Virus record (IMG/VR): IMGVR_UViG_3300035703_000274
Location: 1-33,888 of that record
DNA: 33,888 nt
Direction: 5' to 3' (one strand)
From: a virus
In this document: positions 1,630 to 13,767 of the stretch, piece after piece
Position numbering within the stretch: position 1 is the stretch's first letter
Layout of the letters: the number at the start of each line of letters is the position of its first letter
Notes under the pieces: model-generated
What the model was told of the DNA's origin: nothing
Databases searched by the model: none
Seen by the model: only the letters and a program-made list of their open reading frames with translations
Made by a program: the position numbers and the translations under genes

Positions 1630-1868
1630 GTTTCCACCTCATCGTTTCGTCGTGGCCGAATGGCCACATGGTCAAACCTGCCGTCGTCGTCATCTGACTC
1701 GACGCCAGTCGTCGCAAAGTCATCAAGCGTCCTCGGCGGCATCATTGGACCAAGCTCGAGCTCAAGCTCGGCCTCACGGTATCGAGTCACGCCATACGCT
1801 CGCAGCACCTCGAGGACCTCGCGCAATCGGTCAGTCCCATGGGTCGAGTTCGCTTTCTTGATCGTCAT
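1626..1868 (-). CDS. Small acidic hypothetical protein downstream of terminase
   Basis: This is an 80-residue protein starting at the ATG at 1868, preceded by a GGAGG-type site inside the end of the large terminase gene, which it overlaps by 38 bases. The frame is open much further upstream (to 2492), but that part is antisense-like noise overlapping terminase in another frame, so the short form was chosen. The sequence has an N-terminal helix, a 'GVTRYREAELELELGP' segment and an acidic run 'SDDDDG' near the end. Small proteins of this look often sit between terminase and portal in phages; their function is not known to me. Confidence 0.7.
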   Translation of the reverse strand: MTIKKANSTHGTDRLREVLEVLRAYGVTRYREAELELELGPMMPPRTLDDFATTGVESDDDDGRFDHVAIRPRRNDEVET

Positions 1869-3516
1869 CCTCGTCGCCTCCTCGCAAACGCCGAGCAAGG
1901 CGGTCCGCCTCCTCGACTTCCCACGCTTCCCACCCGTCTGGCAGTGCTCGCGATTCGTCGGCAGGCTCGCCCACAGGCTGCGCCAGCGCAAGCGCCGCAG
2001 CAAACGCGTAATCGCAATGCCGTCCACCAGCTCGAGGCAGCTCGATGCTGATGCCTGATTGCGTGACGCGTTTCCTGACACGCCGGATGTCCTCGAGCAG
2101 CTCGCGCACAGGCGGCAGCTCGACGCCGCGTGACAGCACGAGCGTTCGCAGTGACTCAAACAGCTCAACCTTGCGCCCTGCCGTAATGGCCTCTGACGCA
2201 AGGTAAAGGCTGTGACGCGCGCCAATGTCTGCCAGTGCATCGGCCGCCCACTGGTCGGTTGCAACTCGCGCCACGTTGTATGGCCGCAACTCTTCAGCCA
2301 CCTCGCGTAGCACTTCATCTGGTGACAGCGGAGCGCCTCGAGTTGCTTGCCATTGGTGAGCTTTGACCACGGCCAGTTTGCCGCCTTTAAGGCGCGTCGC
2401 AACGACCAGCGTCCATGCGTCCGCTCGCGTAGCTGGGTCCATTGCCGCGACGTAATGGTGACCGTCGACTGGCGGCAGCTCCACGGCGTCACGCCTCGTC
2501 ACGGCTGCCAAGTCGTCAGCCGTGAACAGTGCCGCTTCAGGGTCGGCAAACTCGCCCAGCACGTCAGTGCGAAACGCCATTGGGTCACGACGCCGCAGCT
2601 CCTCACAACGCTCCGGCGTCCAGTAAACTGGGTTCATTGCGGGCCCGACTGCGCGAATGATAACGCGCTCGCGTGTCGGAGCTTGCCACGCCTCAGTCAC
2701 GAGTTTGTACGCCGGTCCAAACGGGGCCCAAGGCGAGCCGATGCCGCACAGTTGCGCGCCTGGCAAAAGGCGACCGCTAACGGCTGTGCGCGCGTCGTCA
2801 AAATTTACCACGCCGTCCTCTGCGCCGGTCATGCGGGTGAACTCGTCAAACACAACACCAGCCGACCAGCGCGCAACAAGCGAGCCACCAGCTCGAGCGC
2901 CGGCCACAATCTTGACCTCGACCGATGCGCCCGTTGGATGGCGAAACATGATGCTGTCAGACGTCGCTTCGCCAATCGTAAGGCGCTTTAGCGCAGGCGA
3001 CGCGACGCTACGCCCAACGACGTGTTGGTGCACGACGCGGGCAAGGTCAGTGGTCAGAGATACAACGGACACGCGCGGCACTTCGCCAGGGCCAATCAGC
3101 GACAGGTCGCACCGCTGTGTGGCTGCGACGCTCACGGCTGCCGTCATGAGCGACTTTCCCGACCGAATTGGCCCGACGATGTAAAGCTCCGCTGGCCTCG
3201 ATGCTGGCAGCTTGCGCACGTCGCCAATTGACCACGCCAGCGTCGCACGCTCGCGTATGTCCTCGGCGTATGCGCCAGGATTGGCGAGCAGCTGAACGTG
3301 CTCAAGGCCGTCTAGCGGCCTGCCGTCTGCGATGCGGCAAATAGCCTGTTGCAGTGGCGTAGCCGTGCGGAGGTCAAAGCCCTTTGGCGACGTAAGCAGG
3401 CGCTCAAGCGTAAGCGATGACGCATCAGTGCTCTGTGCGCGCTTCGCCTGGAGTTGCTGAAGCCTCGTCCGTGCCTCCTCCTGCAAGCTCGCGTAGGACG
3501 TCCTCAATTGCGTCAT
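1831..3516 (-). CDS. terL: Terminase large subunit (ATPase and nuclease)
   Basis: This is the DNA packaging motor and headful or end-cutting nuclease, acting at the portal. The 561 residues show a Walker A motif GPIRSGKS (residues 115-122), a Walker B motif VVFDE (221-225) and a C-terminal RNase H-like nuclease with Asp at 360 (AAMDPA), 421 (VATDQW) and 502 (HCDYAFA). The length is normal for the family. The chosen ATG overlaps the small-terminase gene by 92 bases; no other in-frame ATG occurs before the Walker A region, so a shorter start would have to be GTG or TTG. The last twenty residues are very acidic. Headful packaging (circularly permuted DNA) would fit a map that appears circular, but the cutting mode cannot be read from this sequence. 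Confidence 0.93.
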   Translation of the reverse strand: MTQLRTSYASLQEEARTRLQQLQAKRAQSTDASSLTLERLLTSPKGFDLRTATPLQQAICRIADGRPLDGLEHVQLLANPGAYAEDIRERATLAWSIGDVRKLPASRPAELYIVGPIRSGKSLMTAAVSVAATQRCDLSLIGPGEVPRVSVVSLTTDLARVVHQHVVGRSVASPALKRLTIGEATSDSIMFRHPTGASVEVKIVAGARAGGSLVARWSAGVVFDEFTRMTGAEDGVVNFDDARTAVSGRLLPGAQLCGIGSPWAPFGPAYKLVTEAWQAPTRERVIIRAVGPAMNPVYWTPERCEELRRRDPMAFRTDVLGEFADPEAALFTADDLAAVTRRDAVELPPVDGHHYVAAMDPATRADAWTLVVATRLKGGKLAVVKAHQWQATRGAPLSPDEVLREVAEELRPYNVARVATDQWAADALADIGARHSLYLASEAITAGRKVELFESLRTLVLSRGVELPPVRELLEDIRRVRKRVTQSGISIELPRAGGRHCDYAFAAALALAQPVGEPADESRALPDGWEAWEVEEADRLARRLRGGDEDDDQESELDPWD

Positions 3517-7640: not shown

Positions 7641-8282
7641 CTACTCAGCGCCAGCCAGCGACACTTGGAGAGCATTCAGCCGCAACGCGCAGGCGTCACA
7701 TGACCCGCAAGCCGTTCCCCGGTAACATGAAACCGATTCAGCCAAGTCTTGTGGGGCATCCGCCCATGTCATCGCGCGTCGGACGACCTCGGCCTTGGTC
7801 ATGCTCGACCAAGGCGCATGAATCGACACGCGCGAAACGACTCCTTTGAGCGCCAAGCCAATGCACCGCTCTGCCGCCGCAAGGAACTCTAGCCGGCAAT
7901 CTGGGAAAGCTTCCGCATCGTCGGCGTTGCAACCGATGACGAGTTCAAGATCATCGCAGGTGACGTTCCGGGCTCCGAAGGATGCTGCAACCGTCAGAAA
8001 TATCAGGTTACGAACAGCGACGTTGGCAAGACTGACGCCGGTGGCGCCTCGGCCAGCGATGGGGTCAGGGACGGAGTCTCCGAGGCTTCGGGTTAGATCA
8101 AGGACCGTGTATGGAACGTTCCTTCGCTCAGCAATTCGTCGCGCAGCCGTCAACTCAGCTCGAGCGTGAAGTTGACCATAGTCGAAGCCAATTGCTTGCA
8201 GCGCCGACCCTTCACTAAGGCACAGATGAAGTGCCGCCGTGCTGTCAAGGCCGCCGCTGAAAAGCACCAGCGACCTTTTCAT
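7641..8282 (-). CDS. queC: QueC, 7-cyano-7-deazaguanine (preQ0) synthase
   Basis: This enzyme converts 7-carboxy-7-deazaguanine to preQ0 using ATP and ammonia. The 213 residues show the PP-loop FSGGLDSTA (residues 8-16), an 'FDYGQLHARAE' segment (33-43) and the C-terminal zinc site with four cysteines at 186, 192, 195 and 198 (SCYRGTACGSCDAC). The length and all key residues match the family. Its ATG overlaps the queD stop by four bases. With queD and the DpdA-like gene it forms a deazaguanine cassette, which in phages serves DNA modification rather than tRNA queuosine. QueE and GTP cyclohydrolase are not in the window and may come from the host. Confidence 0.94.
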   Translation of the reverse strand: MKRSLVLFSGGLDSTAALHLCLSEGSALQAIGFDYGQLHARAELTAARRIAERRNVPYTVLDLTRSLGDSVPDPIAGRGATGVSLANVAVRNLIFLTVAASFGARNVTCDDLELVIGCNADDAEAFPDCRLEFLAAAERCIGLALKGVVSRVSIHAPWSSMTKAEVVRRAMTWADAPQDLAESVSCYRGTACGSCDACALRLNALQVSLAGAE

Positions 8283-8626
8283 CGCGCCGCCTCGGCCCAG
8301 GTCGCTGGCGATTCATAGACGCGGGCAGCGGTAACCCACGCCGGAAGTCGACTGAGCAGCCAGTGCGCGAACACCTCGCTGGTTGGGTTCTCAAGACCTT
8401 CGATGTCGTTGAGGCATCGGTGGTCAATCACATCGTGGATTGGCCACCAGACCTTGGCGATCTCCGCGTAGTCAAGGAGCATGCCGTCAGAGCCAACCTC
8501 GCCCTCGCACATAAGCTCAACGCGATAGGTGTGCCCGTGGAGCTGACGGCACTTGTGGTCCTCTGGAACATTCGGAAGCCAGTGAGCTGCGTCAAAGTCA
8601 AACGTCTTGGCAATCTTGATTTTCAT
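8279..8626 (-). CDS. queD: QueD, 6-carboxytetrahydropterin synthase
   Basis: QueD makes 6-carboxy-5,6,7,8-tetrahydropterin from dihydroneopterin triphosphate, an early preQ0 step. The 115-residue protein shows zinc ligands His15 (FDAAH), His30 and His32 (LHGHTY), the catalytic Cys26 four residues before the first of these, Asp52 (LLDYAEI), His69 (IDHRCLND), 'ENPTSE' (79-84) and Glu105 (YESP). All expected residues are present, so the enzyme should be active. Its ATG overlaps the previous stop (ATGA), and its stop overlaps the queC start. Confidence 0.93.
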   Translation of the reverse strand: MKIKIAKTFDFDAAHWLPNVPEDHKCRQLHGHTYRVELMCEGEVGSDGMLLDYAEIAKVWWPIHDVIDHRCLNDIEGLENPTSEVFAHWLLSRLPAWVTAARVYESPATWAEAAR

Positions 8627-9279
8627 GGTGTTTCAATTTCAAACATAATCTGCTGAGTTCCATGATTGAACCGCCTTGCGCGGTCAAGTTTTGGAACCGT
8701 CGTCGCGAACCGAGAAGCGCTTGTTCCGTCGAAGCTTGTTGCGTTAGCCGACACGCAAAGTTGTATTCTCCGAGCCGTGTTGACGCGACCGACATGCGAC
8801 CAGGCTCCCTTAGACCTTGCAAGCTCGCACCAACTTGCAATGGTCGCTTCTTTCCACTCAGTCGAGCCGCCGACGAAAATGCCGCAGAATTCTCCGATCA
8901 AATCCGCAACGTCTTCTTTTACCATGCCGTCCTGAACGGCAATAAGAGCTCGACCCGTGGAACCAAGAACCCTTGGCAGCCACTGAAGAGAAAACTCCAG
9001 CGAGGCCCGACCTCCTGCCACGATGTCTGGAACGACGACGAAATCGGCGTCACGCCCAAGTTTGGCCAGCGCCTTCAAGAACAACACCTCGTTGAACGGT
9101 TGCTGTTTCTGAAAGGCTGTCCACGCCCCGTTGTCGAGAGCGTATGGAAATCCCTCATGCCGTAAGCATCCAGTGGCAGAAACCAGAAGCCGCCACTCGT
9201 GCTTGCGTAACTCGGCCAGGTTCCGTTTGGTACCTGTCCTAGAAGCGTATCCGATGACAGGATATTCAAGCCACATCAT
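8623..9279 (-). CDS. dpdA: DpdA-like DNA guanine transglycosylase
   Basis: A TGT-fold enzyme that probably exchanges guanine in phage DNA for a 7-deazaguanine base. The 218 residues hold 'ALDNGAW' (47-53), 'VVVPDIVAGG' (81-90), 'FVGGSTEWK' (135-143), 'HVGRVNT' (162-168) and 'SFDGTSASRF' (182-191), a set typical of the short phage DpdA branch. Candidate catalytic aspartates are 49, 85 and 184. It is far shorter than tRNA-TGT (about 370 residues) and lacks an obvious C-terminal zinc site. The ATG at 9279 overlaps the RusA-like stop by four bases; an upstream frame to 9354 overlaps that gene and was rejected. Adjacency to queD and queC supports the call. Confidence 0.78.
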   Translation of the reverse strand: MMWLEYPVIGYASRTGTKRNLAELRKHEWRLLVSATGCLRHEGFPYALDNGAWTAFQKQQPFNEVLFLKALAKLGRDADFVVVPDIVAGGRASLEFSLQWLPRVLGSTGRALIAVQDGMVKEDVADLIGEFCGIFVGGSTEWKEATIASWCELARSKGAWSHVGRVNTARRIQLCVSANATSFDGTSASRFATTVPKLDRARRFNHGTQQIMFEIETP

Positions 9280-9638
9280 CCGCCCAAAAGTGGCAGTCCG
9301 ACAAGCACGCGCACGCCTGGCTTGCCGCGTTCCTGGGCGTAGATCCAATCCCACGACGCGTGGCCGTCATCGACGCCGCGCCAATCGGCTATTCCATCGC
9401 GCACAGCCTTTAGCGCGCCTCGCAAATTGTCGTCGTCGAGCGCGCGAGGCCCCGTCCTGACTAGCAGCACGCGCACCAGCTCGGCGTCGCGGTACTTGGT
9501 GACGTCAACACGCTGGCATCGCAGCGCCAGGTGTACCGCTGACCTCTGCGCCTTCACGCGTCGCGCTCGAGCCGCCCAATGTTCGCGCCGATTCAGCTCA
9601 GACACGGTTCTAATGGGCAACCAAAGCTCAACGGGCAC
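9276..9638 (-). CDS. rusA: RusA-like Holliday junction resolvase
   Basis: This endonuclease would cut four-way junctions formed during phage recombination and replication, and clear branches before packaging. About 120 residues carry the RusA signature: 'ALDDDNLRGALKAVRDGI' followed by 'DWRGVDDG', giving the aspartates and the lysine of the active site. The start is uncertain: TTG at 9653, TTG at 9644 or GTG at 9638; the GTG was chosen because GAAAGG lies at suitable distance. It overlaps its upstream neighbour slightly. It probably works with the nuclease-annealase fusion and SSB on the other strand. Confidence 0.85.
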   Translation of the reverse strand: MPVELWLPIRTVSELNRREHWAARARRVKAQRSAVHLALRCQRVDVTKYRDAELVRVLLVRTGPRALDDDNLRGALKAVRDGIADWRGVDDGHASWDWIYAQERGKPGVRVLVGLPLLGG

Positions 9639-10510: not shown

Positions 10511-10767
10511 GCTCCGATGCCTGGTCGCTCATCGCCAACGATGCGCCACGCATGTGGGATTGGTACGACGTGCTTGGACGCTGGCTAGGCTGTGAACTTG
10601 CGACCGACGCAGACGCAGCCATTGCCGCATGTATCGCCCACCTCGCGACTGACGCGTGCCTATCCGGCACCAAAGCCACCATTACCGTGCGATGCCTCGC
10701 GACTGACGAGCGCGCACGCACCACCACCATCATCACCACAGGTCTGTCATGTCTACCACTCTATTGA
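10507..10767 (+). CDS. Hypothetical protein
   Basis: An 86-residue protein. The ATG at 10507 overlaps the previous stop by four bases, and its own end overlaps the next gene by 19 bases. The sequence opens 'SSDAWSLIANDAPRMWDWYD' and has several tryptophans; the middle looks helical (ADAAIAACIAHLATDA), and the end is Thr-rich with beta potential (ATITVRCLATDE). No family recognised. Confidence 0.6.
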   Translation: MSSDAWSLIANDAPRMWDWYDVLGRWLGCELATDADAAIAACIAHLATDACLSGTKATITVRCLATDERARTTTIITTGLSCLPLY

Positions 10768-12176
10768 TCGTCGACTTTTCCGCCGTCTTTTGGCGCCACT
10801 GGCACGCAAGCGCATCAGAGGCGCTGACCTATGCTCGGCAGCGCACCGTCGATCATGTGCGCTCGATGGCTGCCAATTACACGCACACGATTGTTGCATT
10901 CGACTCACCTAATTGTTGGAGGCTCGACATCTGGCCAGAATACAAGGCCAACCGGCCACCAAAGGACGAGGCGGCGCTTGAGCAGATGCGCCAGGCGCAG
11001 GCCGACCTGTCGTCGCTCTACCCGACTGCGGCACATGAACGTTGGGAGGCCGACGACGTCATTGCTGAGCTGACGACGGGACTGCCTCACGACTGGTCCG
11101 CGTGCGTCTTGTCTGCCGACAAAGACCTCGTGCAGCTCCTTGGCGACCGCGTGACGATGCACCACTTATCTCGCAACGAGGTCATCACTGCGACGATGGC
11201 CGAGGACGCGATCAACCTGCCGCTGCACAGTTACGCTGATTACCTCGCGCTGTGTGGCGACAAGTCCGACAACGTGCTCGGCGTCCAGGGCGTCGGTCCA
11301 GTGCGCGCTGCCGAGTTGCTGCAGAAACACGAAAGCATCGATGGCATTTACTACGCGTTGGACGAAGACGAGGAACAATTCACGCCAAAGCTTCGCCAGG
11401 CGTTGAAGGACGCACGAAAGCGCGAAAACTGCTCAATTTGGACCGCACAAAAGCTCGTGAAGCTGCCCGCTGGATACGCTCCAGCGTGCGCGATTGACCC
11501 TGTAACAATCATCAAAAACTGGAAACCAACAAAGGAAAACACTGTGACCATTGACGAAGCCGACTATGACGAGCCGCAGCCCGCGCCAACTGCGTCAGCT
11601 CCTACGCCAACCATTCCGCAGCCTGCGCCGTCGCAGCCATCGAGCTCGACGCGTGCCATTGTGCCGACCGGCGACTGGCAACGCGCGCTTGAGCCCGCCG
11701 ACAGCAAAGGCGCATACGGGCTTGCCAAGGTCGTCGTGGCCTCGCGCATGTTCTCTGGCTACGGCACTCCCGAGCAGGCAATGCTGGTCATCATGGCTGG
11801 CCGTGAGTTCGGCCTCGGAGCCATGGCCTCGCTGCGCTCGTTTCACGTCGTTGAAGGAAAGCCGACTATGAGCGCGCAATCCATGATGGCGCGCTGCCTC
11901 GAGCACACGAGCTGCCGCTTGTTTCGCGTCGTACGGTCGCGCTGCACCAACGAACTTGCCGTGGTTGAGGTCCAGCGCCACGGCTGGCCAGAGCCCGAGA
12001 CGTACACATGGTCGATTGAGGACGCGAAGCGAGCTGGCCTCGCGAGCCGTCCCAATTGGAGCAAGTACCCGCGCGAAATGCTCATCAACCGCTGCATCGC
12101 TGAAGCTGCACGGTTTGTGTGGCCCGAAGTAATGGCTGGCGTGTATGCGCCAGAAGAGTTTGGAGGCGCGTCGTGA
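10749..12176 (+). CDS. 5'-nuclease (FEN-like) fused to RecT-like annealing domain
   Basis: A 475-residue fusion. Residues 1-240 are a flap-endonuclease/Pol I-type 5'-3' exonuclease: metal or structural sites VDF (Asp9), AFDS (Asp52), 'EYKANR' (64-69), EADD (100-103), SADKD (Asp124, Asp126), then the helix-three-turn-helix 'GDKSDNVLGVQGVGPVRAAE' (170-189). A proline-rich linker (275-306) follows. Residues about 320-475 resemble phage RecT-type single-strand annealing proteins: 'MLVIMAGREFGLGAMASLRS' (345-364), 'GKPTMSAQSMMA' (370-381), 'TWSIEDAKRAGLA' (420-432), 'KYPREMLINRCIAEAARFVW' (439-458), 'VMAGVYAPEE' (461-470). Together these would form a lambda Exo-Beta-like pair in one chain, acting with SSB encoded next. 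The nuclease half is certain; the annealase half is assigned by pattern. Confidence 0.85.
   Translation: MSTTLLIVDFSAVFWRHWHASASEALTYARQRTVDHVRSMAANYTHTIVAFDSPNCWRLDIWPEYKANRPPKDEAALEQMRQAQADLSSLYPTAAHERWEADDVIAELTTGLPHDWSACVLSADKDLVQLLGDRVTMHHLSRNEVITATMAEDAINLPLHSYADYLALCGDKSDNVLGVQGVGPVRAAELLQKHESIDGIYYALDEDEEQFTPKLRQALKDARKRENCSIWTAQKLVKLPAGYAPACAIDPVTIIKNWKPTKENTVTIDEADYDEPQPAPTASAPTPTIPQPAPSQPSSSTRAIVPTGDWQRALEPADSKGAYGLAKVVVASRMFSGYGTPEQAMLVIMAGREFGLGAMASLRSFHVVEGKPTMSAQSMMARCLEHTSCRLFRVVRSRCTNELAVVEVQRHGWPEPETYTWSIEDAKRAGLASRPNWSKYPREMLINRCIAEAARFVWPEVMAGVYAPEEFGGAS
11531..11546 (+). promoter_or_regulatory. Possible internal ribosome site for free annealase
   Basis: Inside the fusion gene AAAGGA (11531-11536) lies eight bases before an in-frame GTG (11544, residue 266), at the start of the flexible linker. 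Initiation here would give a free 210-residue annealing protein in addition to the full-length fusion. This is suggestive only. Confidence 0.35.
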
Positions 12177-12559
12177 ACAAAGTGATTTTGAGCGGTCGCC
12201 TTGGCGCTGAACCAGAGCTGCGCGGTTCCGTCCTGAAGCTGCGTCTAGCCACATCGGAGCGCCGCAAAGACAAGGACGGCAATTGGAGCGACCATACTGA
12301 ATGGCACTCGGTCGTAGTCTTTGGCAAGCGAGCCGAGGCGCTGTCTAGGCTGCTCGGCAAGGGATCGCGAATTTTGGTTGAGGGAAAGCTGCGCACGTCG
12401 AGCTGGGAGAAGGACGGCCAAAAGCACTACAAAACCGAGGTCGCAGCTGATGACGTTGAGCTCCTCGATGGCAAGCGCGACGCCGGCAGCCCTCGAGTCG
12501 ATGCGCCAGCCCATGCGCAGCCACAGGTTGACTGGGACGCTGACGACATGCCATTCTAG
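12173..12559 (+). CDS. ssb: Single-stranded DNA-binding protein
   Basis: SSB coats single-stranded DNA and recruits partners through its C-terminal tip. The 128-residue protein has the OB-fold pattern: 'NKVILSGRLGAEPELR' at the start, 'TEWHSVVVFGKRAEAL', 'KGSRILVEGKLRTSSWEKDG' and 'YKTEVAADDVELL', then a short tail ending DADDMPF, the canonical acidic/hydrophobic tip. The start is GTG, sharing GTGA with the fusion-gene stop, so the two are coupled; a frame upstream of this was rejected because it lies inside the fusion gene. It is the last gene before a strong terminator. Confidence 0.93.
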   Translation: MNKVILSGRLGAEPELRGSVLKLRLATSERRKDKDGNWSDHTEWHSVVVFGKRAEALSRLLGKGSRILVEGKLRTSSWEKDGQKHYKTEVAADDVELLDGKRDAGSPRVDAPAHAQPQVDWDADDMPF

Positions 12560-12870: not shown

Positions 12871-13220
12871 GCCGACTGCATTGGGAACAGCGCCTCGCGC
12901 CGAAACAGCGGTACCAGGATGCGCCTCCGAGCCACTGCCGTGACGAGGCCGAGGTCACGCTCGACCTGTATGGCGACCCGCTTGAGCTCGAGCTCGCCTG
13001 CCTTGTCGAGTACGAGTCCGCCGAGCCTCGGTCGTGGGATAGCCCAGGCTACGACGGCGGTTATTATTTGGCCGACGTCTGGGCGTATCGCGAAAACCAC
13101 GGCTGGAAGCGCCTTGAGCTGCCAGACTGGGCCGAGAAACGCGTCTTAGGCGCCTGCGGCTACGGACCCGATCGTGGCGCTGAAGAGGCCTACGAACGCC
13201 GCCATGCCTGGCGTGATTGA
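12867..13220 (+). CDS. Hypothetical acidic protein
   Basis: A 117-residue protein coupled to the preceding gene by ATGA. It is acidic and aromatic-rich: 'AEVTLDLYGDPLELELACLV' suggests beta strands, and a Tyr/Gly/Asp-rich middle (SPGYDGGYYLADVW) precedes 'WKRLELPDWAEKRV'. No family is recognised; no signal peptide or membrane segment is visible. It overlaps the next gene by 17 bases. Confidence 0.65.
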   Translation: MSRLHWEQRLAPKQRYQDAPPSHCRDEAEVTLDLYGDPLELELACLVEYESAEPRSWDSPGYDGGYYLADVWAYRENHGWKRLELPDWAEKRVLGACGYGPDRGAEEAYERRHAWRD

Positions 13221-13767
13221 GCTAATGATCGCGTGGCTGCTCTCGCCGCTGCCGTGCCCCAGCGGCATGGTGCCGGCAGGAACCGCCGTCTGCATTGATG
13301 AGCTGCCGCTTGATCGCCTGGCGCTGTCGGCAACGCGTGAAGCGTACGTTGACCTTCGTGGGGCGACGTGGAACCTTGAGGAACTATGCGCCGCACAAGG
13401 GAAGCGCGTGTGCTCAGCGGCTGAATGGTCGGCGGCCTGCTACGGCACGCCGCTCGAAACGGCATGTCCGCCCATCGTCGACCAATACCGGCCACCTCGA
13501 TGGAACCTCGTCGCAGCTCGAGACAAGCGCGAGCTCGCACGCCTCGACCGGCGCAGCCACGCATCTGATTACCCGTCGTGCATTGGTCGCAGTGGAGCGC
13601 GCATGATGGGCACAATCGAAGAATGGGTGCGCACACCTCGAGGCTATGCGTTCTCGCGTCGTTTCTGGTCGCGCGACGGAACCTGCTCGCAATTCGTCAG
13701 CTCTCACGCGCCAGACTGGCACGACTACGCCACTGGCGGCCGATGCTGCCTCGATGTCGACCGATGA
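13204..13767 (+). CDS. Exported FGE/SUMF1-like cysteine-rich protein
   Basis: A 187-residue protein with features of the formylglycine-generating-enzyme (SUMF1/PvdO, C-type-lectin-like) fold: 'CPSGMVPAGTAVCIDELP' (18-35), 'YVDLRG' (48-53), 'LCAAQGKRVCSAAEWSAACY' (61-80), 'MGTIEEW' (135-141) and 'HDYATGGRCC' (173-182). These mirror 'A..C...GkRLcteaEWe.Ac', 'GNv.EW' and 'tGFRCC'. There are ten cysteines, and the N-terminus is hydrophobic (GVIELMIAWLLSPLP), suggesting export and disulfides, although no positive charge precedes the hydrophobic core. Enzyme activity cannot be claimed; such folds also serve as ligand-binding modules. The start ATG at 13204 overlaps the previous gene. Similar proteins are frequent in Myxococcota, so it may be host-derived. 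Confidence 0.65.
   Translation: MPGVIELMIAWLLSPLPCPSGMVPAGTAVCIDELPLDRLALSATREAYVDLRGATWNLEELCAAQGKRVCSAAEWSAACYGTPLETACPPIVDQYRPPRWNLVAARDKRELARLDRRSHASDYPSCIGRSGARMMGTIEEWVRTPRGYAFSRRFWSRDGTCSQFVSSHAPDWHDYATGGRCCLDVDR

Follow-up and report, generated by a model that had tools for sequence, protein, structure and literature searches.

The window analysed here is a stretch of viral DNA of 33,888 nucleotides, positions 1-33,888 of IMG/VR record IMGVR_UViG_3300035703_000274. Positions 10749-12176 on the plus strand form a single open reading frame of 475 codons, which begins with an ATG at 10749, ends with a stop codon at 12174-12176 and has no break. The protein is made up of two halves. Residues 1-239 (10749-11465) form a 5' nuclease of FEN/Pol I type, with predicted activity, assigned by Pfam, structure and family alignment. 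Residues 309-475 (11673-12173) are a RecT/Redbeta annealase core, predicted to be active in annealing and assigned by profile, predicted structure and alignment, with no C-terminal domain after the core. Between them is a linker of about 70 residues (residues 240-308, 11466-11672), which is rich in proline, alanine and acidic residues and is probably disordered, since most of it has a pLDDT below 45 in the AlphaFold2 model. The next gene (12173-12559, plus strand) encodes a single-stranded DNA-binding protein (ssb). A preliminary description, made from the sequence of the window, had proposed an uninterrupted gene in which a FEN-type nuclease with all its metal residues is joined by a proline-rich linker to a RecT-like annealase, and the analysis bears out each of these elements.

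The nuclease half, or head, matches Pfam 5_3_exonuc_N (PF02739, 1.9e-22) followed by 5_3_exonuc (PF01367, 2.9e-16), both above the curated cut-offs and in the expected order. Its closest solved relatives by sequence include E. coli ExoIX, Taq Pol I and T5 exonuclease. The AlphaFold2 model of the head has a pLDDT of around 90, and its structural matches include plastid exonuclease 1 (Z 28.6), ExoIX (Z 27.3) and T5 FEN (Z 26.1). All eight metal ligands are present (D9, D52, E100, D102, D124, D126, D171 and D174), together with the arch residues Y65, K66 and R69, which form a Y-K-x-x-R motif, and a helix-hairpin-helix at G178-G183. The metal acids and the arch motif are invariant across the family described below (67-68 of 68 members, a missing residue being due to a truncated contig).

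The annealase half, or tail, matches the RecT-like profile PHROG_561 (1.8e-24) and also PHROG_4171. Pfam RecT, with a cut-off of 24, scores 25.4 bits on the isolated tail and 22.3 bits, below the cut-off, on the whole protein. PHROG_561 is 633 positions long and was considered as a profile that might already contain the fusion; this was rejected, as only its RecT part ever matched. In the AlphaFold model of the whole protein, the RecT half was at first poorly resolved (pLDDT about 30-70). Remodelling of the tail with AlphaFold2 from 93 related sequences gave a pLDDT of 92.4, and when this model was compared with 350,542 PDB chains using Foldseek, lambda Redbeta was the sole confident match (probability 1.00, E 5.9e-5). 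The VIA ranking of the same predicted model places Redbeta first (Z 8.2), followed by the RecT of a Listeria phage (Z 6.3), with RAD52 and Sak among the lower and tied entries (5.7); the structures concerned are 7ujl for Redbeta and 7ub2 for the Listeria phage RecT. A profile of the 93 tail sequences finds the Redbeta chain by sequence too (1.7e-7). The RecT residues R455 and E470 are invariant across the 68 family members. The C-terminal half is therefore recognised as an annealase by both profile and structural search.

The fused gene occurs in 79 virus contigs including the window, of which 68 are non-redundant, and the 78 other contigs hold it in the same single frame, with neither frameshift nor stop codon between the halves. 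Identity to the window protein is often only 25-38%. The frames were checked with head and tail profiles, giving 78 fused loci including the window; one more (L275, left out of the non-redundant set) was added by a second scan. Searches with close sequences only understated the size of the family. The window protein alone found four fused relatives and an alignment of these found seven, while a six-sequence alignment including two divergent members (A5) brought out the breadth, with about 70 matches spanning both halves, down to 24-38% identity. There are three apparent exceptions (L257-L259), in which the gene runs off the end of the contig. In a single case seen in the second scan (L287, 2435-4678), RecT-like and FEN genes are adjacent yet separate; there RecT comes first and FEN second, opposite to the arrangement in the fusion. 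Because this split pair exists, fusion may not be required.

The fused copies are all from metagenomic virus contigs. A collection of 50,697 phage records, queried with four fused proteins at 80% coverage, yielded no such protein, and neither did 72,556 plasmids. A profile search of 1,173 sampled bacterial genomes (396, 379 and 398) found RecT-like matches in 37, and none of the 28 RecT-like loci examined was fused; of two earlier bacterial scans, the first found no relatives and the second was taken up by Pol I matches. On the basis of the sequence matches, the fused FEN-annealases thus appear to be a large phage enzyme family. Two further genes recur just downstream of them in divergent phages (L213 and L216 are example loci): one encoding a conserved protein of about 150 residues of unknown function (19 loci), and one encoding an HNH-like protein (10 loci).

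Within the window, the fused gene is coupled to ssb by a GTGA overlap, in which the GTG start of ssb at 12173 overlaps the stop codon of the fused gene. The ssb gene is present in seven of the eight contigs of the close group, and outside this group the coupling is found in only two divergent members. The coupled ssb gene of the preliminary description is therefore correct for the window and its close group, and is rejected as a general family feature (8 of 68 loci). The window phage also has a gene for a DnaC-like helicase loader and, nearby, one for a RusA-like resolvase. These would suit a recombination module carried by a phage that relies on the replisome of its host, and they lower the likelihood that the protein serves in primer removal alone.

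Several other genes in the window were noted. On the minus strand, 7641-9354 encodes QueC (1.7e-41), QueD/PTPS (1.5e-27) and then a 243-residue protein of unknown function matching PHROG_15826 (2.7e-42), a set that by sequence resembles a pathway to 7-deazaguanine (preQ0) and might serve in modifying DNA. Also on the minus strand are a weak match to a YdaS toxin/Cro-like protein, possibly a phage regulator (9866-10210, 1.3e-4, below the cut-off), and a 561-residue reading frame at 1831-3513, which by eye resembles a large terminase and has no Pfam match at 0.01. On the plus strand, a 197-residue reading frame at 13174-13764 has homologues in the close relatives and no PHROG match.

Comparison of pairs of fused genes shows that heads and tails have been exchanged since the fusion. 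The fused genes of L003 (3226-4644) and L005 (8001-9416) have tails that are 99% identical and heads that are 53% identical, while those of L251 and L254 have heads that are 91% identical and tails that are 61% identical. The exchange took place inside one frame, and the crossovers apparently fell in the linker, which suggests that the halves behave as independent modules.

The unfused relatives of the annealase half are stand-alone genes and, where the partner has been typed, it is a separate YqaJ exonuclease. Among 18 other annealase-bearing contigs, FEN was found only in the two that are fused, and a separate YqaJ gene in five. L031 has the split order exonuclease-RecT-SSB, with an exonuclease of the YqaJ type and a RecT start that overlaps the nuclease stop. 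The same order is annotated in Arthrobacter phage Vibaki, where the nuclease gene is labelled simply as an exonuclease. Since these split relatives carry an exonuclease gene before RecT, the fusion puts FEN in the exonuclease slot and joins it to the annealase. The close phages, searched for FEN and YqaJ nucleases rather than for families such as PDDEXK, each have no FEN besides the fused one, and no YqaJ nuclease was found in any of them.

The fused proteins also differ from most stand-alone RecT relatives at the C-terminus. They all end 0-15 residues (median 4) past the RecT core, whereas most of the stand-alone proteins extend for tens to more than 100 residues past it. For Redbeta, the C-terminal domain is described in PMC5052646 as required for recombination, with contacts there contributing to the interaction with the exonuclease; without it, Redbeta still anneals. 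By analogy, the covalent link could stand in for a lost docking domain. This argument is weakened because the Redbeta C-terminal domain has roles besides exonuclease docking (PMC5052646).

The linker contains a candidate internal start. In the window this is a GTG (11544-11546, residue 266) preceded by a Shine-Dalgarno-like AAGGA (11532-11536, plus strand, -5.6 kcal/mol), from which the predicted product is a free annealase of 210 residues. We infer its use here from the family, in which such a site is favoured. All eight close relatives have a linker ATG or GTG preceded by a purine-rich stretch. Across 68 genes, ATG is about 2-5 times commoner 20-40 codons past the nuclease domain than in other linker bins, and a Shine-Dalgarno-like site precedes it in 10-17% of cases there, compared with no more than 3% in the rest of the linker. 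Of the 68 linkers, 31 have an ATG whose site reaches -6 kcal/mol or better, while shuffled codons give 11.9 ± 3.0 (highest value in 200 shuffles: 20). Synonymous resampling, in which the protein is fixed and the codon usage of the gene is kept, gives 28 against 18.0 ± 2.4 at -6 kcal/mol (maximum of 300: 23), and a weaker excess at -5 (34 against 28.5) and at -8 (17 against 11.3); all of these figures are computed across related genes, and family kinship remains in them. An explanation by amino acid composition alone is rejected, as the excess survives both procedures. As it persists with the protein fixed, the nucleotides, and not the residues alone, look selected. Taken across the family, an in-frame start with a Shine-Dalgarno site thus occurs at a conserved place more often than chance would give. 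The window itself has a modest GTG, and the ATG sites of L208, L196, L193 and L220 are much stronger.

The simplest reading is that the internal start is the old start of a recT gene, kept in use, and the fused gene may therefore also yield free annealase. Whether this is a single-chain FEN-annealase family with two products, full-length protein and free annealase, the ratio of which sets how many nuclease-bearing subunits seed each filament, we regard as evenly balanced. Free annealase in excess would fit a filament on long single-stranded DNA with nuclease only at its end. Genes within genes, with a C-terminal product that assembles with the full-length one, are described for cas10d/cas11d and rpn in PMC10327210. 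In those cases an internal in-frame start gives the C-terminal second product, and the same layout is proposed for the fused gene, the difference being that the second product is deduced here entirely from start-codon and Shine-Dalgarno statistics.

On the basis of these observations, we hypothesise that the protein is probably a single-chain homologous recombinase, that is, a covalent 'SynExo' pair in which FEN occupies the slot of YqaJ, RecE or lambda Exo. The FEN head would strip the 5' strand (or 5' flaps) from an end of the phage DNA, and the flexible linker would hold the RecT tail near the freshly exposed 3' strand, on which the tail would nucleate an annealing filament, while the neighbouring SSB would cover the remaining single-stranded DNA. 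The covalent link would take over the role of the C-terminal docking domain of Redbeta, which is missing here. A likely extra layer is that the linker start would add free annealase; filaments made up mostly of subunits without a nuclease would then be seeded by a few that carry one. The fusion would in this way couple resection to annealing; both activities, their order and the importance of the link are inferred. Among the points that count against a single-chain SynExo, the placement of the two domains relative to each other has low confidence in the AlphaFold model, the match of Pfam RecT to the full protein is marginal, and the fused copies are all metagenomic.

Enzymes of the FEN type act preferentially on flaps and in a distributive manner, while lambda Exo is processive and toroidal. 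End resection by the FEN head is for this reason not assured, and the main rival explanation is that the nuclease acts last: the RecT tail would first anneal a strand into a gap or a replication fork, after which the FEN attached to it would cut the displaced 5' flap for ligase. Structurally the head is closest to flap endonucleases (T5 FEN, ExoIX and the Pol I 5' domain), its arch residues Y65, K66 and R69 are invariant, and the nearest stand-alone annealases already resect with other exonucleases, all of which would suit flap trimming. It is harder to reconcile with the close fused phages, which have no YqaJ exonuclease for resection, and with the position of the head in the gene slot of the exonuclease of the split relatives. 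We consider this explanation rather unlikely, though worth serious attention.

Phage FEN domains commonly serve replication, and the fused protein could accordingly be a replication enzyme that clears Okazaki primers in the manner of T4 RNase H, with the RecT tail merely a tether to single-stranded DNA. The adjoining ssb gene and the DnaC-like helicase loader are consistent with this. However, the loader suggests that the phage uses the replisome of its host, in which primer removal is already taken care of by Pol I; a RusA-like resolvase gene lies nearby; and the annealase core is complete and as conserved as the nuclease, with a median identity of 0.38 against 0.37, which a tether would not need. 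A replicative role is therefore improbable. Misassembly, a frameshift introduced by sequencing or a meaningless one-off fusion might be suspected from a metagenomic contig with no cultivated example found, and can be dismissed, given 78 further contigs from many samples with the same frame, diverged sequences and invariant catalytic residues.

The single-chain recombinase, if correct, matters for several reasons. Recombineering is built on the exonuclease-annealase pairs of phages, which also shape the mosaicism of phage genomes. Since the partners dock weakly, the way in which DNA passes from nuclease to annealase has yet to be settled. With a covalent form found in nature, in nearly 80 environmental contigs, the hand-over becomes directly testable via the linker, and the natural swaps of heads and tails indicate which parts must match. 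The family suggests that a FEN can take the place of the toroidal exonuclease normally used, and for hosts in which two-gene systems do not work, the fused genes are candidates for single-gene recombineering.

Both parts belong to families already known. What appears undescribed is their covalent union as a FEN-annealase, and how widespread it is. No such fusion was found in the open-access full-text literature or in the phage and plasmid collections (subscription papers lay outside this search), and within that scope the view of the preliminary description that the form is new holds good; the open-access texts consulted describe exonuclease and annealase as two separate proteins. The fold and metal ligands of the head are common to T5 D15 FEN, E. 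coli ExoIX/Xni, the Pol I 5' nuclease domain and T4 RNase H, but these are stand-alone or joined to a polymerase, whereas the fused head is joined to an annealase. The closest likeness in gene order is to the YqaJ-exonuclease/RecT/SSB modules of L031, L362 (a bacterial genome) and Vibaki (YqaJ being typed in the first two), which have a related RecT core and the same gene-order slot; there the genes are split and the annealase has a long C-terminal extension. Lambda Red (lambda Exo with Redbeta) and RecE/RecT of Rac likewise pair a 5'-3' exonuclease with an annealase of RecT/Redbeta fold. They differ from the fused family in three ways: they are two separate proteins that dock non-covalently, in place of one frame in all complete copies; their exonucleases have another fold (lambda Exo, RecE or YqaJ type), in place of FEN; and their annealase has a C-terminal docking domain, which the fused tail lacks.
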